Origin: Stappia sp. WLB 29 | GTDB lineage: Bacteria; Pseudomonadota; Alphaproteobacteria; Rhizobiales; Stappiaceae | Direction of reading: 5' to 3' | Assembly: GCF_023507705.1 (NCBI RefSeq) | Contig: NZ_JALBGD010000009.1 | Coordinates: forward strand, 192,919-246,736 | DNA length: 53,818 nt | Shown: piece after piece, positions 12,952 to 19,429 of the stretch | Layout of the letters: each line of letters opens with the position of its first letter | How positions within the stretch are numbered: position 1 is the first letter of the stretch | Made by a program: the position numbers and the translations under genes | Notes under the pieces: model-generated | The model's database searches: none | What the model was told of the DNA's origin: nothing | What the model saw: only the letters and a program-made list of their open reading frames with translations

Positions 12952-13629
12952 TCACAAGCTCGCAAGATAGTCCTCGAAACGCCGCCCGCGCTCGCTCGGG
13001 GCCCGCTCGTCCGTCTCCTCCACGGCCGTAATGCGGTCGAGGCGGAAGTTGCGGAAGTCGTCGCGTGCCTCGCACCACCCGGTCAGCAGCCAGACCTCGT
13101 CGAAGGCCGTGAGCCCGAGCGGGCGGACCCGCCTGCGGCTTTCCCGCCCGGCAAGATCCCTGTAATCGAGCAGCACGATCCGCTGCCGGCGAATGGCCCG
13201 GCGCAGCCCCGGCAACCAACGTTTGGCGGTCTGCGCCTGCGGACGCTCGCGCGCGACGGCACGCAGCGGCAGGCGAAGGGTCGTCTCGCCCCCCGCCTCG
13301 CCCGCGGCCGCGCCGATCTTGCCCGCGACACGCAGTGCCGCCTCGCGCAAGGGCGCATCGCCGCGCGCGCCCACCAGCCGCATGCCGAGCGCGATCGCCT
13401 CCAGTTCCTCCTCGTCGAAGCGCAGCGGCGGCAGGAAGTACCCCCGCTCCATCTGATAACCGAGCCCTGCCTCGCCGCGCACCGGCGCGCCCATCGCCTG
13501 CAGAGTGGCCATGTCCCGGTAGATCGTGCGGGGCGACACCTCTAGCGCGCTGGCAAGCTCCTCGGCCGAAACGGGACCGCCGGCGCTGCGCAGCCGGTCG
13601 AGCAGGGAGAACAGACGAAAGACCTTCAT
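12952..13629 (-). CDS. YafY-type HTH/WYL transcriptional regulator
   Basis: A 225-residue regulator with an N-terminal winged helix (LASALEVSPRTIYRDMATLQ) and a C-terminal WYL domain, which senses an unidentified ligand. I prefer the ATG at 13629, with AGGA 8 nt upstream, over ATGs at 13635 and 13650. It is divergent from the gene at 13719 with a CTGACA-N5-TGTCAG repeat between, so it probably controls that gene and itself. Confidence 0.88.
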   Translation of the reverse strand: MKVFRLFSLLDRLRSAGGPVSAEELASALEVSPRTIYRDMATLQAMGAPVRGEAGLGYQMERGYFLPPLRFDEEELEAIALGMRLVGARGDAPLREAALRVAGKIGAAAGEAGGETTLRLPLRAVARERPQAQTAKRWLPGLRRAIRRQRIVLLDYRDLAGRESRRRVRPLGLTAFDEVWLLTGWCEARDDFRNFRLDRITAVEETDERAPSERGRRFEDYLASL

Positions 13630-13652
13630 GGCCATAGTCCTAGCGCACACCC

Positions 13653-13669
13653 CTGACAGAAGGTGTCAG
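13653..13669. promoter_or_regulatory. Candidate operator of the WYL regulator
   Basis: Perfect inverted repeat CTGACA-GAAGG-TGTCAG in the 89-nt divergent gap between the WYL regulator and the gene at 13719. Position and symmetry fit an operator; the binding protein is inferred. Confidence 0.55.
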
Positions 13670-13718
13670 CAGCCACGGCGTATCTCCCGCAGTGCATCAC
13701 GCAGCATAGGAGCATCGC

Positions 13719-14315
13719 ATGCAAGGTCATTGCCTCGAAGTCGTCGCCTACCGGGTGGAAGATCCGGATCGCGCCGACCATGAACGCAGGCTCGCACTCG
13801 ACAAGATCCGCTCGTTCCCCGGCTTCCTCGCCTGGACGCAGCTGACGGGAACCGGCGAGGCGGCCCAGCGCGTCGATCTCGTCGCCTGGAAGAGCGAAGA
13901 GGCGGCGCTCTCGGCCGCACGCGAGGTCGGAGAAGGAGCAGACTTCGCCGGCTTCCGCGCCACGATCGGCAGCGTCGCCAGCATGGGCCACTACGCGGCG
14001 AGCCAGCCGGCGCCCCTCGGCCTCCTTTCCGGGGACGGGATGGAGATCGGCCGCTTCCGCCTGAAGGCGGGCGTGGCGGAAGCCGACATGCGCGCGGCCC
14101 ATGCACGGATGGTGGAGCGCCACCTCTCGCGCCAGCCGGGCTGGCTGGGCCAGCGGCTGGTCCGGCTCGAAAGCGGCACGTTCCTCGATATCGCCATTGC
14201 CGACAGCCGGGCGCGGGCCGTTGCCATCTGCAACAGCTGGCAGGGCAACGCGGACTGCGACGCCTTCCTCGCCCTGATCGAGCCGGAAAACATGGAATTC
14301 GGCGAATTGGTGTGA
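13719..14315 (+). CDS. Two-domain ferredoxin-like barrel protein (ABM-like)
   Basis: A 198-residue cytoplasmic protein with two halves (about 1-95 and 105-198), each reading like a dimeric alpha/beta-barrel (antibiotic biosynthesis monooxygenase-like) domain: VVAYRV...FPGFLAWTQL...DLVAWKSEEAALSA, then IGRFRLKAGV...QPGWLGQRLV...IAIADSRARAVAI. AGGAG precedes the ATG. Genes of this kind are commonly paired with YafY regulators, but enzymatic activity is not established. Confidence 0.7.
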   Translation: MQGHCLEVVAYRVEDPDRADHERRLALDKIRSFPGFLAWTQLTGTGEAAQRVDLVAWKSEEAALSAAREVGEGADFAGFRATIGSVASMGHYAASQPAPLGLLSGDGMEIGRFRLKAGVAEADMRAAHARMVERHLSRQPGWLGQRLVRLESGTFLDIAIADSRARAVAICNSWQGNADCDAFLALIEPENMEFGELV

Positions 14316-14341
14316 TCCGAACGCAAGGCAAGCTCGGCACG

Positions 14342-14373
14342 ACGGCGCATTCCCCGCAGGAATGCGCCGTTTT
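14342..14373 (+). terminator. Intrinsic terminator
   Basis: Perfect 12-bp stem ACGGCGCATTCC / GGAATGCGCCGT (14342-14353, 14359-14370) with a 5-nt loop followed by TTTT. It ends the barrel-protein gene and isolates the downstream ATP-grasp cluster. Confidence 0.88.
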
Positions 14374-14395
14374 CGCAAGTCCGAAACCTCTTGAT

Positions 14396-14423
14396 TTGAC
14401 GTGTCCCCTAGGCGCGTTAAGCT
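14396..14423 (+). promoter_or_regulatory. Candidate promoter of the ATP-grasp/Anbu cluster
   Basis: TTGACG (14396-14401), 16-nt spacer, TAAGCT (14418-14423), just after the preceding terminator. The -35 match is good and the -10 is poor. The leader to the first gene would be about 190 nt. Confidence 0.35.
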
Positions 14424-14609
14424 TGTTGCCGCAAGGTCCAGTCCCGGTCGGCCTGCCTGCCGGGAATGCAGATGGAGGTGTTTGCTGGCGCAATTTCGGA
14501 CTTGGAAGGCGCCGTTCCGGTTTGCGAACATGGGCCCTGTCGGCGGAGCGCCAGACCGCTTCGCCTTCAAGAACAAGACGACGTTGCGGACGAGGGGTTA
14601 GAGACACGC

Positions 14610-16031
14610 ATGGGGGAGAGCACGATTTTCAACGAGATGCTGACCGCCGACGGCAAGCCCCGCGCGCCCTACAGGCGGCTCGCCGAATGGTTCGACACCC
14701 TGTCCCCGGCGGAGATGCGCAAGAAATCGCGCGAGGCAGAGACGATCTTCCGCCGCCTCGGCATCACCTTCGCCGTCTACGGCACGTCAGAGGCCACCGA
14801 ACGGCTGATCCCCTTCGACATCGTCCCGCGCGTGCTCTCGGCGTCCGAGTGGCGGCGCCTGTCGGCCGGCATCGACCAGCGGGTGCGGGCGCTCAACGCC
14901 TTCCTCTACGACATCTACCATCGCCAGGAGATCGTGCGGGCCGGCCGCGTGCCGGCGGAGCTGATCCTGCAGAACGAAGCCTTCCTGCCGGAGATGATCG
15001 GCTTCACCCCGGCGCGCCGGGTCTATGCCCATATTATAGGCACCGACCTCGTGCGCGTCGGCGAGGACGACTTCTACGTGCTGGAGGACAACACCCGCAC
15101 CCCGTCCGGCGTCTCCTACATGCTGGAGAACCGGGAGACGATGATGCGGATGTTCCCGGAGCTGTTCCAGCAGAACCGGGTGGCGCCGATCGAGCACTAT
15201 CCGGACATGCTGCGCGAGACGCTGGAAAGCGTCGCGCCGGAGAACTGCGACGGCGATCCGACGGTCTGCATCCTGACGCCGGGCATCTACAACTCCGCCT
15301 ATTTCGAGCATGCCTTCCTCGCCGACACGATGGGCGTGGAGCTGTGCGAGGCCCGCGACCTCTATGTGGAGGACGGCAAGGTGTGGATGCGCACCACCCA
15401 GTCGCCGCAGCGGGTCCATGTGATCTACCGGCGCATCGACGATGCCTTCCTCGATCCGCTGACCTTCCGTCCCGACAGCATGCTCGGCGTGCCCGGCCTG
15501 TTCGACGCCTACCGGGCGGGCAACGTGACGATCTGCAACGCACCGGGCACGGGCATTGCGGACGACAAGGCGATCTATGCCTATGTGCCGGACATCATCG
15601 AGTTCTACACCGGCCAGAAACCGATCCTGAAGAACGTACCGACCTGGAACTGCGCCAAGCCGGACGACCTCGCCTATGTGCTCGACCGCCTGCCGGAGCT
15701 GGTGGTGAAGGAGGTGCACGGCTCGGGCGGCTACGGCATGCTGATCGGTCCGACCGCCTCCAAGCGCGAGATCGCCGAGTTCTCCAAGCGGCTGAACGCC
15801 AACCCCGCCAACTACATCGCCCAGCCGACCCTGGCGCTGTCGGCCTGCCCGACCCACGTGCAATCGGGGCTGGCGCCCCGCCATGTCGACTTGAGGCCCT
15901 ATGTGCTGGTCGGAGACAAGGTGCGCATCACGCCCGGCGGCCTGACCCGCGTGGCGCTGAAGAAAGGCTCCCTGGTGGTGAATTCCAGCCAGGGCGGCGG
16001 CACCAAGGACACCTGGGTTCTGGAGGACTGA
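14610..16031 (+). CDS. Circularly permuted ATP-grasp type 2 protein
   Basis: A 473-residue member of the circularly permuted ATP-grasp family (DUF404/DUF407), predicted amidoligases that join an amino group to a carboxylate using ATP. Conserved features include DDFYVLEDNTRTPSGVSYML, KEVHGSGGYGMLIGP (nucleotide-binding loop) and the C-terminal HVDLRPYVLVGD...PGGLTRVAL...SSQGGGTKDTWVL. I start at ATG 14610; the open frame continues to 14466 but that part has no family character. It is followed 6 nt later by the alpha-E gene, a fixed partnership across proteobacteria. Confidence 0.92.
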   Translation: MGESTIFNEMLTADGKPRAPYRRLAEWFDTLSPAEMRKKSREAETIFRRLGITFAVYGTSEATERLIPFDIVPRVLSASEWRRLSAGIDQRVRALNAFLYDIYHRQEIVRAGRVPAELILQNEAFLPEMIGFTPARRVYAHIIGTDLVRVGEDDFYVLEDNTRTPSGVSYMLENRETMMRMFPELFQQNRVAPIEHYPDMLRETLESVAPENCDGDPTVCILTPGIYNSAYFEHAFLADTMGVELCEARDLYVEDGKVWMRTTQSPQRVHVIYRRIDDAFLDPLTFRPDSMLGVPGLFDAYRAGNVTICNAPGTGIADDKAIYAYVPDIIEFYTGQKPILKNVPTWNCAKPDDLAYVLDRLPELVVKEVHGSGGYGMLIGPTASKREIAEFSKRLNANPANYIAQPTLALSACPTHVQSGLAPRHVDLRPYVLVGDKVRITPGGLTRVALKKGSLVVNSSQGGGTKDTWVLED

Positions 16032-16037
16032 CGAACC

Positions 16038-16985
16038 ATGCTCGGCCGTACCGCCGCATCCCTGTTCTGGACCTCGCGCTACAACGAGCGGGCGGAGAAC
16101 ATGGCCCGCCTGCTGGAGGTGGGATATCGCATCGCCATGACGCCGCGCCTGGGCCAGGACGCCGCCGACGACTGGCGCTCGACGCTGGTCAGCGCCGGCT
16201 GCGACCAGGCCTTCTTCAAGAAGCACGACGAGCTGACCAAGCGCTCCGTCGTCGCGCACATGCTGTTCGACCCGGACAACCCCTCCTCCGTGCGCTCCTG
16301 CATCGAGGCGGCCCGCAACAACGCGCGCTCGGTGCGCACCGCCATCACCGGCGAGATGTGGGAAAGCCTGAACACGACCTATATCGACTTCATGGAAGTG
16401 CGCCCGCAGCACATGACCGACGACAAGCTGCCGGGCTTCCTGACCTGGATCAAGCAGCGCTCCATGCTGTTCCGCGGCGCGATGCTCGGCACATTGATGC
16501 GCGACGAGGGCTACCACTTCTCGCAGTTCGGCTGCTTCATCGAGCGCGCCGACAACACCTCGCGCATCCTCGACGTGAAATACTGGATTCTGCTGCCGGA
16601 CAACGAGGTGGTCGGCGGCGAACTGGACCGCTACCAGTGGTCGACGATCCTGCGCTCGGTCTCGGCCCATCGCAGCTATCGCCACGCCTATCGCGATGCC
16701 CAGATCCGTCCGTTCAACATCGCCGAGTTCCTGATCCTGCGGAAGGAGATGCCGCGCTCGCTGGCCTATTGCTACGACTGGATCTCCGAAAGCATGGACT
16801 CGCTGACCGCCCGCTACGGCGAGCAGCCGATGAGCTACGACATGGCCAAGCGCACCTACCAGCTGCTGGACGGGACGACGATGCAGCAGGTTTTCCAGAG
16901 CGGCCTGCACGAGTTCCTGGGGGACATGATCGCCAGAAACAACGGGCTGGGCGCGCAGCTCGCAGCGGACTATCACTTCGCCTGA
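16038..16985 (+). CDS. Alpha-E domain-containing protein (DUF403)
   Basis: A 315-residue all-helical protein of the alpha-E (DUF403) family, found almost always beside a permuted ATP-grasp protein. Typical features are the N-terminal LGRTAASLFWTSRYNERAENMARLLE and the central FSQFGCFIERADNTSRILDVKYW. Biochemical role unknown; it is thought to act with the ATP-grasp partner in a peptide-type ligation. Starts 6 nt after the previous stop with GGAGG inside the end of that gene. Confidence 0.92.
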   Translation: MLGRTAASLFWTSRYNERAENMARLLEVGYRIAMTPRLGQDAADDWRSTLVSAGCDQAFFKKHDELTKRSVVAHMLFDPDNPSSVRSCIEAARNNARSVRTAITGEMWESLNTTYIDFMEVRPQHMTDDKLPGFLTWIKQRSMLFRGAMLGTLMRDEGYHFSQFGCFIERADNTSRILDVKYWILLPDNEVVGGELDRYQWSTILRSVSAHRSYRHAYRDAQIRPFNIAEFLILRKEMPRSLAYCYDWISESMDSLTARYGEQPMSYDMAKRTYQLLDGTTMQQVFQSGLHEFLGDMIARNNGLGAQLAADYHFA

Positions 16986-17064
16986 GACGAGACGAAACGA
17001 GCAGAACGACAAGACGCCGGCGGCCGAACGCAAAGCCGGCCGCAGACGAGGAAGCCGGAGAGAC

Positions 17065-17886
17065 ATGCGCCTCAGCGTCAAACATGTGACCCGCTATCGG
17101 TACGACCGCCCGCTGGCCCACATGGTCCAGCAGCTGCGCCTGACGCCACCCACCCTGGCCGGGCAGAAAGTCGTGTCCTGGACCATCGACGTGCCGGGCT
17201 ACGACCGGGCCGGGCACTACATCGATGCCTTCGGCAATCCGGTCGCCATCGTCAGCCACCGCGAGACGATGAGCGAGTTGACCATCACTGTAGAGGGCGT
17301 GGTCGAGACGCAGGACCGGGCGGGCGTCGTGGGCCTGCCCCCGAGCCCGACGCCCGACAACGTGTTCCTCCGCTACACCCCGCTGACCAAAGCCAACCCG
17401 GCGATCCGCCGGCTCGGCGCTCTGGCCGAACGCGGCGAGGCGGACGCGGTCTCCGGTTTCCACGACCTGATGCAGGCGATCCGCGACAAGGTCGCCTACC
17501 GCACCGGCGTCACCGAGGTGCATACCGCGGCCGTCGATGCGTTGAATGCCGGCGAGGGCGTATGCCAGGACCATGCGCATATCTTCATCGCCGCAGCCCG
17601 TTCCATCGGCGTGCCGGCGCGCTATATATCGGGCTACATGCTGCTGGACGACGGACAGGGGTCGGAGGCGCATCACGCCTGGGCCGAGGTCCTGCTGCCG
17701 CAGCTCGGCTGGGTCGGCTTCGACATATCGAACGGCATGTGCCCGACCGACCGCTACATCCGCCTCACCTGCGGCCTCGACTCGCGCTCCGCCGCGCCGA
17801 TCCGCGGTATCCGCACGGGCGGGTCCGGCGAGAACATGGATGTGGAGGTGGCGGTTTCACAGGAATCGCAGCAAGCTCAGCAATAG
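17065..17886 (+). CDS. Transglutaminase-like cysteine protease family protein
   Basis: A 273-residue protein with an N-terminal beta-sandwich (bacterial transglutaminase-like N domain, about 1-85) and a papain-fold transglutaminase-like core. The catalytic triad is visible: Cys167 (GVCQDHAH), His204 (HHAWAEV) and Asp220 (FDISN). It may cleave or form isopeptide bonds, and no signal peptide is present, so it acts in the cytoplasm. Located 79 nt after the alpha-E gene and 121 nt before Anbu on the same strand; GGAG lies 4 nt before the ATG. Confidence 0.92.
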   Translation: MRLSVKHVTRYRYDRPLAHMVQQLRLTPPTLAGQKVVSWTIDVPGYDRAGHYIDAFGNPVAIVSHRETMSELTITVEGVVETQDRAGVVGLPPSPTPDNVFLRYTPLTKANPAIRRLGALAERGEADAVSGFHDLMQAIRDKVAYRTGVTEVHTAAVDALNAGEGVCQDHAHIFIAAARSIGVPARYISGYMLLDDGQGSEAHHAWAEVLLPQLGWVGFDISNGMCPTDRYIRLTCGLDSRSAAPIRGIRTGGSGENMDVEVAVSQESQQAQQ

Positions 17887-18007
17887 GACCGTTGCCGGTA
17901 CGGCAGCGAACCTGTCAAATCCCCAGGAGCCGGCGCGACGCGCGAATCGTCGCCGCGCGCGATCCGGCCGGGCGTCCGCCCTCCCCGTTTTCGGAGATTG
18001 TCTGCTC

Positions 18008-18739
18008 ATGACCTATTGTGTCGGTCTGAAGCTCGATCGCGGCATCGTGATGGCCGCCGATACGCGCACCAATGCCGGGCTCGACAATGTCGCCACCTTC
18101 AAGAAGCTGCATGTGTGGGAAAAGCCGGGCGACCGGGTGATCTGCATGATGGCGGCCGGCAACCTCGCCGTCACCCAGTCGGTGGTGAGCCTCTTGAGCG
18201 AGCGGCTGAAGGGCGAGGAACCGGGCCGTCCGACGCTGCATACCGTGGACACCATGTTCCAGGCCGCGCGGCTGGTGGGCAGCGCGGTGCGCGACGTGCG
18301 CGCCATCGACGGCGAGGCGCTTGCCGCAAACTCCGAGAGCTTCAGCGTCACCTTCCTGCTGGGCGGCCAGATCAGGGGCGAGGCGCCGCGCCTCTTCCAG
18401 ATCTATTCGGCCGGCAACTTCATCGAGGCCTCCGCCGATACGCCCTTCCTGCAGATCGGCGAGCACAAATACGGCAAGCCGATCCTCGACCGGGTGACGC
18501 AGGCGGACATGCGCCTCGGCCAGGCGGCGAAGCTGGTGCTGCTGTCGTTCAACTCGACCCTGCGCTCGAACCTGTCGGTCGGCATGCCCATCGACATGCT
18601 GCTCTACAACACCGACAGCTTCTCCGCCCATCGCCAGACCCGCATCCGCGAGGACGACCCCTATTTCGCGGACCTCTCCCGCATGTGGTCGGAAAAGCTG
18701 CGCGACGCGGTCGCCGAGATTCCCGACTTCGAGATCTGA
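18008..18739 (+). CDS. Anbu, proteasome-like peptidase
   Basis: A 243-residue Anbu (ancestral beta subunit) homolog, an Ntn-hydrolase related to HslV and 20S beta subunits. After removal of Met1 the new N-terminal Thr would be the nucleophile, with Asp17 (AADTRTNAG) and Lys32 (TFKKLH) in mature numbering as the supporting residues. Anbu forms open helical rings and its cellular substrate is not settled. No unfoldase ATPase lies nearby. Its stop is only 6 nt from the stop of the convergent ABC ATPase gene, with no terminator between. Confidence 0.93.
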   Translation: MTYCVGLKLDRGIVMAADTRTNAGLDNVATFKKLHVWEKPGDRVICMMAAGNLAVTQSVVSLLSERLKGEEPGRPTLHTVDTMFQAARLVGSAVRDVRAIDGEALAANSESFSVTFLLGGQIRGEAPRLFQIYSAGNFIEASADTPFLQIGEHKYGKPILDRVTQADMRLGQAAKLVLLSFNSTLRSNLSVGMPIDMLLYNTDSFSAHRQTRIREDDPYFADLSRMWSEKLRDAVAEIPDFEI

Positions 18740-18745
18740 CGCCCC

Positions 18746-19429
18746 TCACCCCTCGAGGATGCGGCCGTCCTCCATCCGCACGATGCGGTCGGCAAGGTCG
18801 AGGATGCGGTTGTCGTGGGTGACCATCAGCGTGGTGGTGCCGCGCTCGCGGCCGAGCCGGCGTAGCATCTCGACGACGGCAAGGCCGCTGTCGCGGTCGA
18901 GCGCGGCCGTCGGCTCGTCGGCCAGCACCACCGGCGGATTGCCGACCAGCGCCCGGGCGACGGCGACACGCTGCTTCTGCCCGCCGGAGAGATTGCCCGG
19001 CAGGTAGTCCACCCGCTCCGACAGGCCGACGAGGCCGAGCACATGGCGCGCCGCCGCTCGCCCGTCGCCGGTGACGCGGTCCCCGTGGACGGCGAGCCCC
19101 ATATGGACGTTCTGCAGGGCCGTCAGGCTTTCGTGCAGATTGTGCGCCTGGAAGATGAAGCCGAGCTGCCGCCGGCACGCGACGAGCTCCGCCTCGCTGG
19201 CGCCATTCAGCTCGCGGCCGAGCAGCTCCACCGAGCCGGCCTCGACCTGCCGCAGGCAGCCGATCAGGGTGAGCAGCGTCGTCTTGCCGGAGCCGGATGC
19301 GCCCATCAGCACCACCAGCTCGCCGCGCCGGACTTCCAGATCGACGTCGAACAGCACCTGCTTGCGCGCCTCGCCGCTGCCGAACCAGTGACTGAGCCCA
19401 CGCACGGCGATGGCAAGCGCGTCGCCCAT
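18746..19429 (-). CDS. ABC exporter ATP-binding subunit, DevA family
   Basis: A 227-residue MacB/LolD-type ATPase: Walker A GASGSGKTT, Q-loop FIFQAHNLHESLTALQN, signature LSGGQKQR, Walker B VVLADEPTAALD and switch VTHD. It powers the permease encoded immediately upstream (2-nt gap). Together with permease and fusion protein it matches the DevBCA class, which in cyanobacteria exports glycolipids; the cargo here is unknown. The last gene of the operon. Confidence 0.92.
   Translation of the reverse strand: MGDALAIAVRGLSHWFGSGEARKQVLFDVDLEVRRGELVVLMGASGSGKTTLLTLIGCLRQVEAGSVELLGRELNGASEAELVACRRQLGFIFQAHNLHESLTALQNVHMGLAVHGDRVTGDGRAAARHVLGLVGLSERVDYLPGNLSGGQKQRVAVARALVGNPPVVLADEPTAALDRDSGLAVVEMLRRLGRERGTTTLMVTHDNRILDLADRIVRMEDGRILEG

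Follow-up and report, generated by a model that had tools for sequence, protein, structure and literature searches.

The window (the whole stretch of 53,818 nucleotides analysed, from Stappia sp. WLB 29) contains an ordinary, complete copy of the published four-gene Anbu operon, with genes for an ATP-grasp, an alpha-E protein, a transglutaminase-like protein and Anbu in that order on one strand (Table 1). The operon was described by Valas and Bourne in 2008 and by Iyer et al. in 2009 (as cited in PMC6376114 and PMC5666114), and the idea that such clusters carry out synthesis and cleavage is not new, having been proposed earlier. What we add here is the distribution of the operon, the sigma54 promoter matches of its relatives, the internal duplication of alpha-E, a paralogous cluster in which ATP-grasp and alpha-E are fused, and a search that found no fifth conserved gene. 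We tentatively read the Anbu operon, with a little less than even confidence, as an ATP-dependent module that makes and cleaves amide bonds, often for nitrogen stress.

The operon in Stappia and its four proteins

The first-pass annotation had assigned four genes on one strand to these families, and Pfam and PDB sequence matches confirmed the assignments. The genes are separated by 6, 79 and 121 nt, in operon order, and the Stappia sp. WLB 29 genome encodes one copy each of ATP-grasp, alpha-E, a Bact_transglu_N protein and Anbu. Compared with the Anbu operons of Y. bercovieri and P. putida (PP_2685 to PP_2688), the window agrees in all four families and in their order, its Anbu matches five solved Anbu sequences (E 1.8e-96 to 2e-68), and its copy differs in nothing essential. 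The earlier view of a complete set, together with the synthesis-and-cleavage idea, was upheld in outline.

Table 1. The Anbu operon and its upstream elements in the window
Feature	Position	Strand	Details
GC-rich hairpin	14341–14371	+	13 pairs, -25 kcal/mol, z -4.74
Leader element YTGRCGCWWWTTCGGACTTGR	14485–14505	+	alignment with Stappia relatives
ATP-grasp	14610–16031	+	473 aa; PF14403 E 1.9e-169, PF04174
Alpha-E	16038–16985	+	315 aa; PF04168 E 2.6e-92
Transglutaminase-like	17065–17886	+	273 aa; PF08379 and PF01841
Anbu	18008–18739	+	243 aa; PF00227; PDB Anbu 5nyj E 1.8e-96

Anbu is a proteasome-like N-terminal nucleophile protein with conserved Thr2, Asp18 and Lys33. Thr2 becomes Thr1 once Met is removed, and Thr1, Asp17 and Lys32/33 (numbering of PMC6376114) are all present. 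Thr was found in 93 of 94 relatives (the other has Ser), and Asp and Lys in all 94. The transglutaminase-like protein, a putative cysteine amidase or peptidase, has the conserved catalytic positions Cys167, His204 and Asp220; in 70 relatives scoring above 200 bits, His and Asp were invariant and Cys was present in 68, with two lacking it. The intact N-terminal Thr and full set of catalytic residues reported at first pass were borne out by these conserved positions, whose catalytic role would follow from the families to which the two proteins belong. Solved structures exist both for Anbu, already published (PMC5666114, PMC6376114), and for a close relative of the ATP-grasp.

The ATP-grasp is a circularly permuted ligase, matching PF14403, PF04174 and, over residues 6–473, the sequence of PDB 3n6x (E 2.4e-200), and its catalytic positions were kept across 80 relatives. 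The ATP-grasp of another species releases phosphate from ATP (PMC6376114). Alpha-E, judged by a half-to-half profile match, is an internal tandem duplication with homologous halves, and the motif ERA(E/D)NxxR occurs once in each half (residues 17–24 and 169–176). A sequence search of the PDB found no solved relative of alpha-E; a weak match of the alpha-E profile to cullin-4B (E 0.0036), covering profile positions 185–293 only, was treated as a helical chance match. The predicted structure of alpha-E, built with 13 close sequences, had a mean pLDDT of 47.4 and a pTM of 0.35, and because of this low confidence no inference was taken from it. The viral contigs scanned held no alpha-E relative.

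The chemistry, the class of substrate and the order of steps we infer as follows. The ATP-grasp, with alpha-E, would turn a carboxylate into an acyl phosphate for coupling to an amine or amino acid. The resulting amide bond would be hydrolysed or transferred by the transglutaminase-like enzyme and, in genomes that have it, by Anbu.

Upstream, the GC-rich hairpin stands between the operon and a 198-aa gene (13719–14315), and it probably terminates the upstream transcription unit. Its tail has only four T, which is why a consensus terminator scan requiring five missed it; the hairpin behind the strong upstream terminator of the first-pass annotation is present. The convergent downstream neighbour noted earlier is an ABC gene, whose end at 18746 indeed lies 6 nt from the stop codon of Anbu. 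The exact core of the leader element (CGCN3TTCGGACTTG) was found in 7 of 12 fetched relatives and in the window's own genome, where the element is the sole site within two mismatches and a genome scan gave one further site at three. No sigma70-type promoter was found in 13900–19000 and no Rfam family in 13600–19000 at gathering score, and the 121-nt gap preceding Anbu showed no convincing RNA structure (z -1.98).

Distribution of Anbu and its partners

Anbu was present in 161 of the 397 Pseudomonadota genomes sampled, and 158 of these 161 also had alpha-E of either type (Fisher p 6e-48, in a test that ignores relatedness and counts both alpha-E types). Alpha-E of either type occurred without Anbu in 74 of 232 genomes. 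Because Anbu is rarely without alpha-E, while alpha-E is often without Anbu, Anbu appears to be an add-on. The transglutaminase is not counted as a core member; it adjoined ATP-grasp and alpha-E at only two of five loci fetched without Anbu.

The neighbourhood was kept at all 12 loci fetched from Stappia and related bacteria, and of 94 Anbu loci, chosen at about one per genus, 65 had the full gene order. The annotation, which had staked its proposal on a neighbourhood conserved across related genomes, passed on this point. That the four genes form an obligatory unit was unsupported: besides the genomes with alpha-E and no Anbu, 18 of the 94 loci had Anbu alone within the fetched stretch, and in one genus (3 genomes) a catalytically intact Anbu occurs with none of its partners.

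A paralogous cluster consists of a large transglutaminase (~1,110 aa), a fused ATP-grasp/alpha-E and a transglutaminase (~295 aa). It has the same three enzyme families as the Anbu operon, but differs in carrying ATP-grasp and alpha-E in one chain, in its additional large transglutaminase and in having no Anbu of its own. The fusion suggests that ATP-grasp and alpha-E act jointly. This cluster is absent from the window's genome, where there is only one alpha-E and one ATP-grasp.

Promoter matches and possible nitrogen control

With a sigma54 matrix and an NtrC pattern entered by hand, a sigma54 promoter match was found upstream of 24 of 83 ATP-grasp genes, spanning 15 families, compared to 1 of 83 on the opposite strand and 7 of 345 neighbour genes (Fisher p 3e-13 versus neighbour genes). 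NtrC-like palindromes that matched at 8 or more of 10 bases were present in 15 of the 24 sigma54-bearing regions compared to 52 of 345 neighbour genes. The remaining 59 ATP-grasp upstream regions fell below the sigma54 threshold. For seven genera with the site, all 16 congeners kept one, and none of four congeners of a genus without it had one. For the large transglutaminase of the paralogous cluster, a sigma54 match in 2 of 10 was too few to judge. The Stappia operon, in contrast to the 24 regions, had no sigma54 match in 400 nt upstream, and its best NtrC match was 7/10; the genome does encode sigma54.

Judging from these relatives, a shortage of nitrogen may turn the operon on in some of them. 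In many Pseudomonadota a sigma54-type promoter at the synthetase end, probably with NtrC, would serve this response, and the window's lineage would be under a different control. Published induction by nitrogen starvation agrees with the sigma54 matches. P. putida PP_2685 to PP_2688 are induced by nitrogen limitation (PMC8050072, PMC7801951, PMC3325844), with NtrB/NtrC named by the authors as putative regulator (PMC7801951), and B. cenocepacia relatives with the large transglutaminase need NtrC and sigma54 (PMC5491218). However, in a P. putida rpoN mutant under nitrogen limitation, PP_2686 to PP_2688 still rose 14- to 20-fold (PMC7801951, Table 2), which is evidence against simple sigma54 dependence in that species. 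These data weaken the sigma54 reading; they make the amide-making and amide-cleaving module, and a parallel with the Pup-proteasome system considered below, somewhat less likely, and somewhat more likely an Anbu that works independently of the other three genes, as a mere passenger in their operon.

Such independence is consistent with the solitary Anbu loci and the orphan-Anbu genus, with the absence of sigma54 enrichment before Anbu genes lacking, in the 700 nt upstream, a core gene on their own strand (1 of 26), and with wild-type P. putida, in which PP_2685 (Anbu) rose 1.12-fold and its partners 11- to 15-fold (PMC7801951, Table 2). Yet a second data set (PMC8050072) has PP_2685 up by 4.44 log2 units, and both the near-constant company of alpha-E and the loci with the full gene order speak against independence. 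We consider it quite improbable.

Neighbouring genes, related systems and possible substrates

Comparing all ORFs of 70 aa or more with one another across 100 loci gave no fifth conserved gene; the largest non-core clusters spanned 14, 13 and 10 loci and lay at varying distances (computed for nine clusters). Representatives of 20 neighbour clusters (indices 3–21 and 24, each spanning at least 4 and at most 14 loci) were scanned. They matched an ABC ATPase, a short-chain dehydrogenase, BacA, a response regulator, MutS, two hydrolases, a methyltransferase, HPPK, an enoyl-CoA hydratase, an extensin-like protein, a histidine kinase, Usg, a glycosyl hydrolase, an inositol phosphatase, a 2-hydroxyacid dehydrogenase, a TonB receptor and a DEAD helicase, and two had no match. 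The most common short ORF (20–75 aa) lying no more than 1.5 kb from the core genes occurred at 8 of 100 loci and, where checked, was antisense to mutS.

These results bear on a pathway of protein tagging or turnover, in which proteins would receive an amino acid or a short peptide from ATP-grasp/alpha-E, the transglutaminase would edit this tag, and Anbu would digest or untag the conjugates. The kinship of Anbu with the proteasome and the nitrogen-stress-type promoters of many relatives fit such a pathway, and there are precedents in RimK, an ATP-grasp ligase able to modify a protein (according to the available part of PMC12239564), and in the Pup-proteasome system, which aids nitrogen-limited growth of M. 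smegmatis (according to that of PMC8223512). It fits less well with the lack of an AAA+ unfoldase among the 20 representatives from beside the operon, with the lack of a widely common short ORF near the core genes, or with the frequent occurrence of alpha-E without Anbu. Moreover, Anbu of other species assembles as an open ring (PMC5666114, PMC6376114) and cut none of three proteasome substrates (PMC6376114). We regard protein tagging as rather unlikely.

The Anbu operon might also correspond, in proteobacteria, to the Pup-proteasome system. It would then be a pathway for nitrogen stress, under sigma54/NtrC in many lineages, whose ligase, formed by ATP-grasp and the duplicated alpha-E, would conjugate an amino acid or peptide to targets, whose transglutaminase and Anbu would act as erasers, and whose Anbu would have been added to an older core and stand alone in one genus. 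The Pup-proteasome ligase belongs to a different family than the ATP-grasp of the Anbu operon, and an unfoldase beside the peptidase, as in the Pup-proteasome system, is absent from the neighbour clusters examined here. The likeness to the actinobacterial system lies in ATP-dependent amide ligation, a proteasome relative and a link to nitrogen limitation (as far as the available part of PMC8223512 describes it). We hold this reading to be unlikely. The Rim/Rlo systems similarly pair an ATP-grasp ligase with a peptidase, in Rlo with a transglutaminase-fold protein, but they differ from the Anbu operon in that the peptidase is of the retropepsin type and the transglutaminase is an inactive membrane protein, and the available part of their description names no alpha-E (PMC12239564).

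In a further scheme, modelled on glutamylated-amine pathways, the operon would scavenge amines: the ligase would store amine nitrogen in an amide with glutamate or with a peptide containing Glu, from which the hydrolases would later free either the nitrogen or the carrier. The label of 3n6x, the PDB relative, is putative glutathionylspermidine synthase, the genes are co-induced with nitrate genes and genes for urea transport (PMC8050072, PMC7801951), and in marine metagenomes the operon's domains cluster with those of urea metabolism (PMC3597751). However, the ATP-grasp had no match to the glutathionylspermidine synthase family of Pfam, reporting only PF14403 and PF04174 at an E cut-off of 0.001, and no amine transporter or amine oxidase was found among the scanned representatives. 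We give amine scavenging little credence. For the amide-making and amide-cleaving module that we prefer, the substrate would most likely be a small peptide or amine, not a folded protein.

About two in five of the sampled Pseudomonadota genomes carry Anbu, a bacterial cousin of the proteasome. The sigma54-type promoter that 15 families have at the synthetase end suggests nitrogen stress as a condition under which to search for the product of the operon, and a single-copy genome such as that of the window avoids the paralogous cluster, which could mask a knock-out phenotype.

Anatomy of the operon and its leader

The four genes lie on one strand, as the first-pass annotation had described, and their coordinates and Pfam and PDB matches agree with that description. 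When compared with the PDB by sequence, the window Anbu matched five solved Anbu sequences (best 5nyj, E 1.8e-96), the ATP-grasp protein matched 3n6x over residues 6-473 (E 2.4e-200), and the transglutaminase-like protein matched 3isr (E 3.4e-12); alpha-E had no PDB match at E ≤1. The four-gene set is an Anbu operon and represents, in typical form, a family that is known but unsolved. Reading it as a peptide-tagging or peptide-synthesis-and-cleavage system was correct in outline and is already in print as a hypothesis; the peptide-synthesis proposal reportedly comes from Iyer et al. 2009.

Features of the Anbu operon and its upstream region (window positions)
Feature	Position	Strand	Pfam match	Context
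198-aa protein	13719-14315	+	none	directly 5' of the operon; strong hairpin after it
Leader element, 21 nt	14485-14505			between hairpin and start codon; common to Stappia relatives
ATP-grasp gene	14610-16031	+	CP_ATPgrasp_2, E 1.9e-169	
Alpha-E gene	16038-16985	+	Alpha-E, E 2.6e-92	
Transglutaminase-like gene	17065-17886	+	Bact_transglu_N + Transglut_core	
Anbu gene	18008-18739	+	Proteasome, E 1e-10	

The gene 3' of Anbu is convergent and 6 nt away, again as annotated. The hairpin upstream, which had been called a strong terminator, is real (z -4.74), but its T tail is short and it is not among the terminators found by the consensus scan.

The exact core of the leader element was found in 7 of 12 fetched relatives, and in the leader alignment its distance to the start codon varies among Stappia relatives. 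A genome scan found it at this sole place with ≤2 mismatches, and at one more with three. Part of the element, TTTCGGACTTG (14493-14503), has an inverted copy, CAAGTCCGAAA, at 14376-14386, ~110 nt upstream and right behind the hairpin. As a relaxed pattern search gave two window matches versus about one in shuffles, and as the upstream copy is missing from some aligned relatives, it may be due to chance. Also right behind the hairpin, a TTGACG...GTTAAG pair (14396-14421) may be the promoter; its spacing is short, and by eye several aligned Stappia leaders seem to keep it.

Distribution, gene order and the fused paralogue

The neighbourhood is conserved in related genomes: the four genes occurred in order at 12/12 Stappia-type loci, which were found via alpha-E in named genomes (ten Stappia, one Hongsoonwoonella and one MAG labelled Rhodobacteraceae). 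Among 397 evenly drawn Pseudomonadota genomes (at least 90% completeness requested), alpha-E was present in 232 and Anbu in 161. Both occurred in 158, Anbu only in 3, alpha-E only in 74 and neither in 162, where the 158 and 74 are counts of either alpha-E type, because the search mixes operon and fused types. Alpha-E relatives were also present on 105 PLSDB plasmid records, 63 of them from Sinorhizobium, and therefore the module is also found on large replicons.

We then compared 94 Anbu loci, about one per genus among the matches listed (all but the lowest-scoring), with a few genera represented more than once; L018 was left out, being on the same contig as L012. The full gene order was found at 65, with a gap of >1 kb before Anbu in two of these; Anbu was alone in the fetched stretch at 18, and 11 had other arrangements. 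Five further loci were fetched around alpha-E genes and showed no Anbu over the fetched length; in two of them the transglutaminase gene is a direct neighbour. Comparison of the operon loci and neighbouring gene clusters revealed no fifth conserved gene, and no widely shared short ORF was found near the operon loci.

The three Anbu-only genomes (L102, L103, L109) belong to one genus and are also without ATP-grasp and Bact_transglu_N proteins, and in their Anbu the Thr, Asp and Lys are all intact. The Anbu at L040:7060 has Ser for Thr as its putative N-terminal nucleophile, the sole exception in the 94. In two transglutaminases, L054:7886 and L113:7874, the catalytic Cys is replaced (by Pro and Ser), with His and Asp kept.

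A PF14403 search of 14 chosen genomes found second copies with long frames. The 11 paralogous regions fetched encode a fused ATP-grasp/alpha-E chain of ~800-900 aa and a transglutaminase of ~295-345 aa, and 10 of them a large transglutaminase of ~1,110-1,190 aa (not seen in L136). Such a fused chain suggests that ATP-grasp works with alpha-E as a single enzyme. In L138, L139 and L140 the paralogous cluster lies at most a few kb from an operon-type ATP-grasp/alpha-E pair. L047 and L090 lack the transglutaminase, Anbu coming right after alpha-E; in both genomes the paralogous cluster, with its transglutaminases, is present elsewhere (L136, L140). A search with a single fused protein at a strict limit of E 1e-120 matched 80/299 genomes, the window genome not among them.

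Sigma54 matches at the synthetase end

Regions of ≤400 nt upstream of ATP-grasp were scanned with a hand-typed sigma54 matrix at the 99% level of shuffled sequence. The 83 regions comprised the window, its relatives L003 and L011 as the only other Stappia-type loci, and 80 sampled loci, of which some lack Anbu. Matches above threshold occurred in 24/83, from 15 families, versus 1/83 on the opposite strand. At the same threshold, matches were found before 7/345 neighbour genes (other, conserved), 1/81 alpha-E genes, 2/69 Anbu genes inside the operon and 1/26 Anbu genes without a core gene just upstream. ATP-grasp differed from neighbour genes with Fisher p 3e-13, relatedness being ignored in this as in all sigma54 tests. 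The neighbour control is imperfect because gene starts were set mechanically (first start codon after a stop), which leaves the opposite-strand control unaffected. Among 20 congeners fetched, the site was present in 16/16 from seven site-bearing genera (nine from a single genus) and in 0/4 from a genus without it. NtrC-like palindromes (matching ≥8 of the 10 fixed bases) occurred in 15/24 site-bearing regions, 18/57 others and 52/345 controls, with ~20% expected from shuffles. The window operon has neither a sigma54 match nor an NtrC-like palindrome upstream; sigma54 is encoded in its genome.

We take COG3484 to be Anbu. The accessible parts of the published work give the following picture. 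A survey of sigma54 regulons in alpha-, beta- and gammaproteobacteria includes COG3484 ('proteasome-type protease'; PMC12316311), and Anbu, whose assembly is an open ring, is induced in nitrogen-limited P. putida (PMC5666114). In that species, PP_2685 (Anbu) and its operon partner PP_2688 rose by 4.44 and 3.99 log2 units on nitrate versus ammonium (PMC8050072), and PP2685 to PP2687 were up in PMC3325844. Under nitrogen limitation, PP_2686 to PP_2688 were up 11- to 15-fold in the wild type, with PP_2685 up only 1.12-fold; in an rpoN mutant the three partners were still up 14-, 16- and 20-fold, as were urea-transport genes (PMC7801951). Induction in P. putida is therefore not simply sigma54-dependent. 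The B. cenocepacia genes I35_5080-83 (DUF404/407, DUF403, transglutaminase, large transglutaminase) are NtrC- and sigma54-dependent (PMC5491218), and in marine metagenomes DUF403/404/407 cluster with urea-metabolism domains (PMC3597751). A Caulobacter NtrC paper, in its accessible text, mentions 'transglutaminase' solely for another gene, hvyA (PMC10274813). Thus, the sigma54 link of the Anbu operon is not itself new. In the accessible literature we found no report of a match recurring across families at the synthetase end, nor of its lack before isolated Anbu genes or in the Stappia lineage.

Alpha-E duplication and the predicted chemistry

Alpha-E, judged by its sequence, is a duplication. 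In an alignment of 40 of 82 available sequences, split after residue 139, the two halves matched by profile comparison with a probability of 99.5% (E 2e-21, 139 columns). Rerun with default options, the comparison gave 99.2% (E 6e-20); a reversed half scored <1%, as did six shuffled halves. Both halves contain ERA(E/D)NxxR. No published statement of this duplication was found in the accessible literature, which consists of papers other than the original family description.

The anatomy, conservation, co-occurrence and promoter matches in relatives are shown by the analysis; we infer the reaction, its substrate and the order of steps as follows. ATP-grasp and alpha-E would form an amide, which the transglutaminase-like enzyme and Anbu would be able to hydrolyse. 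With somewhat less than even confidence, we favour a small peptide or amine amide as substrate over bulk protein degradation, because alpha-E persists without Anbu, the neighbouring gene clusters examined contain no unfoldase, and Anbu cut none of the proteasome substrates tried (PMC6376114).

For this family, the most useful additions in our view are that many relatives have sigma54-type promoters at the synthetase end, that alpha-E is duplicated, that one genus has an orphan Anbu and that the window genome offers a single-copy background.
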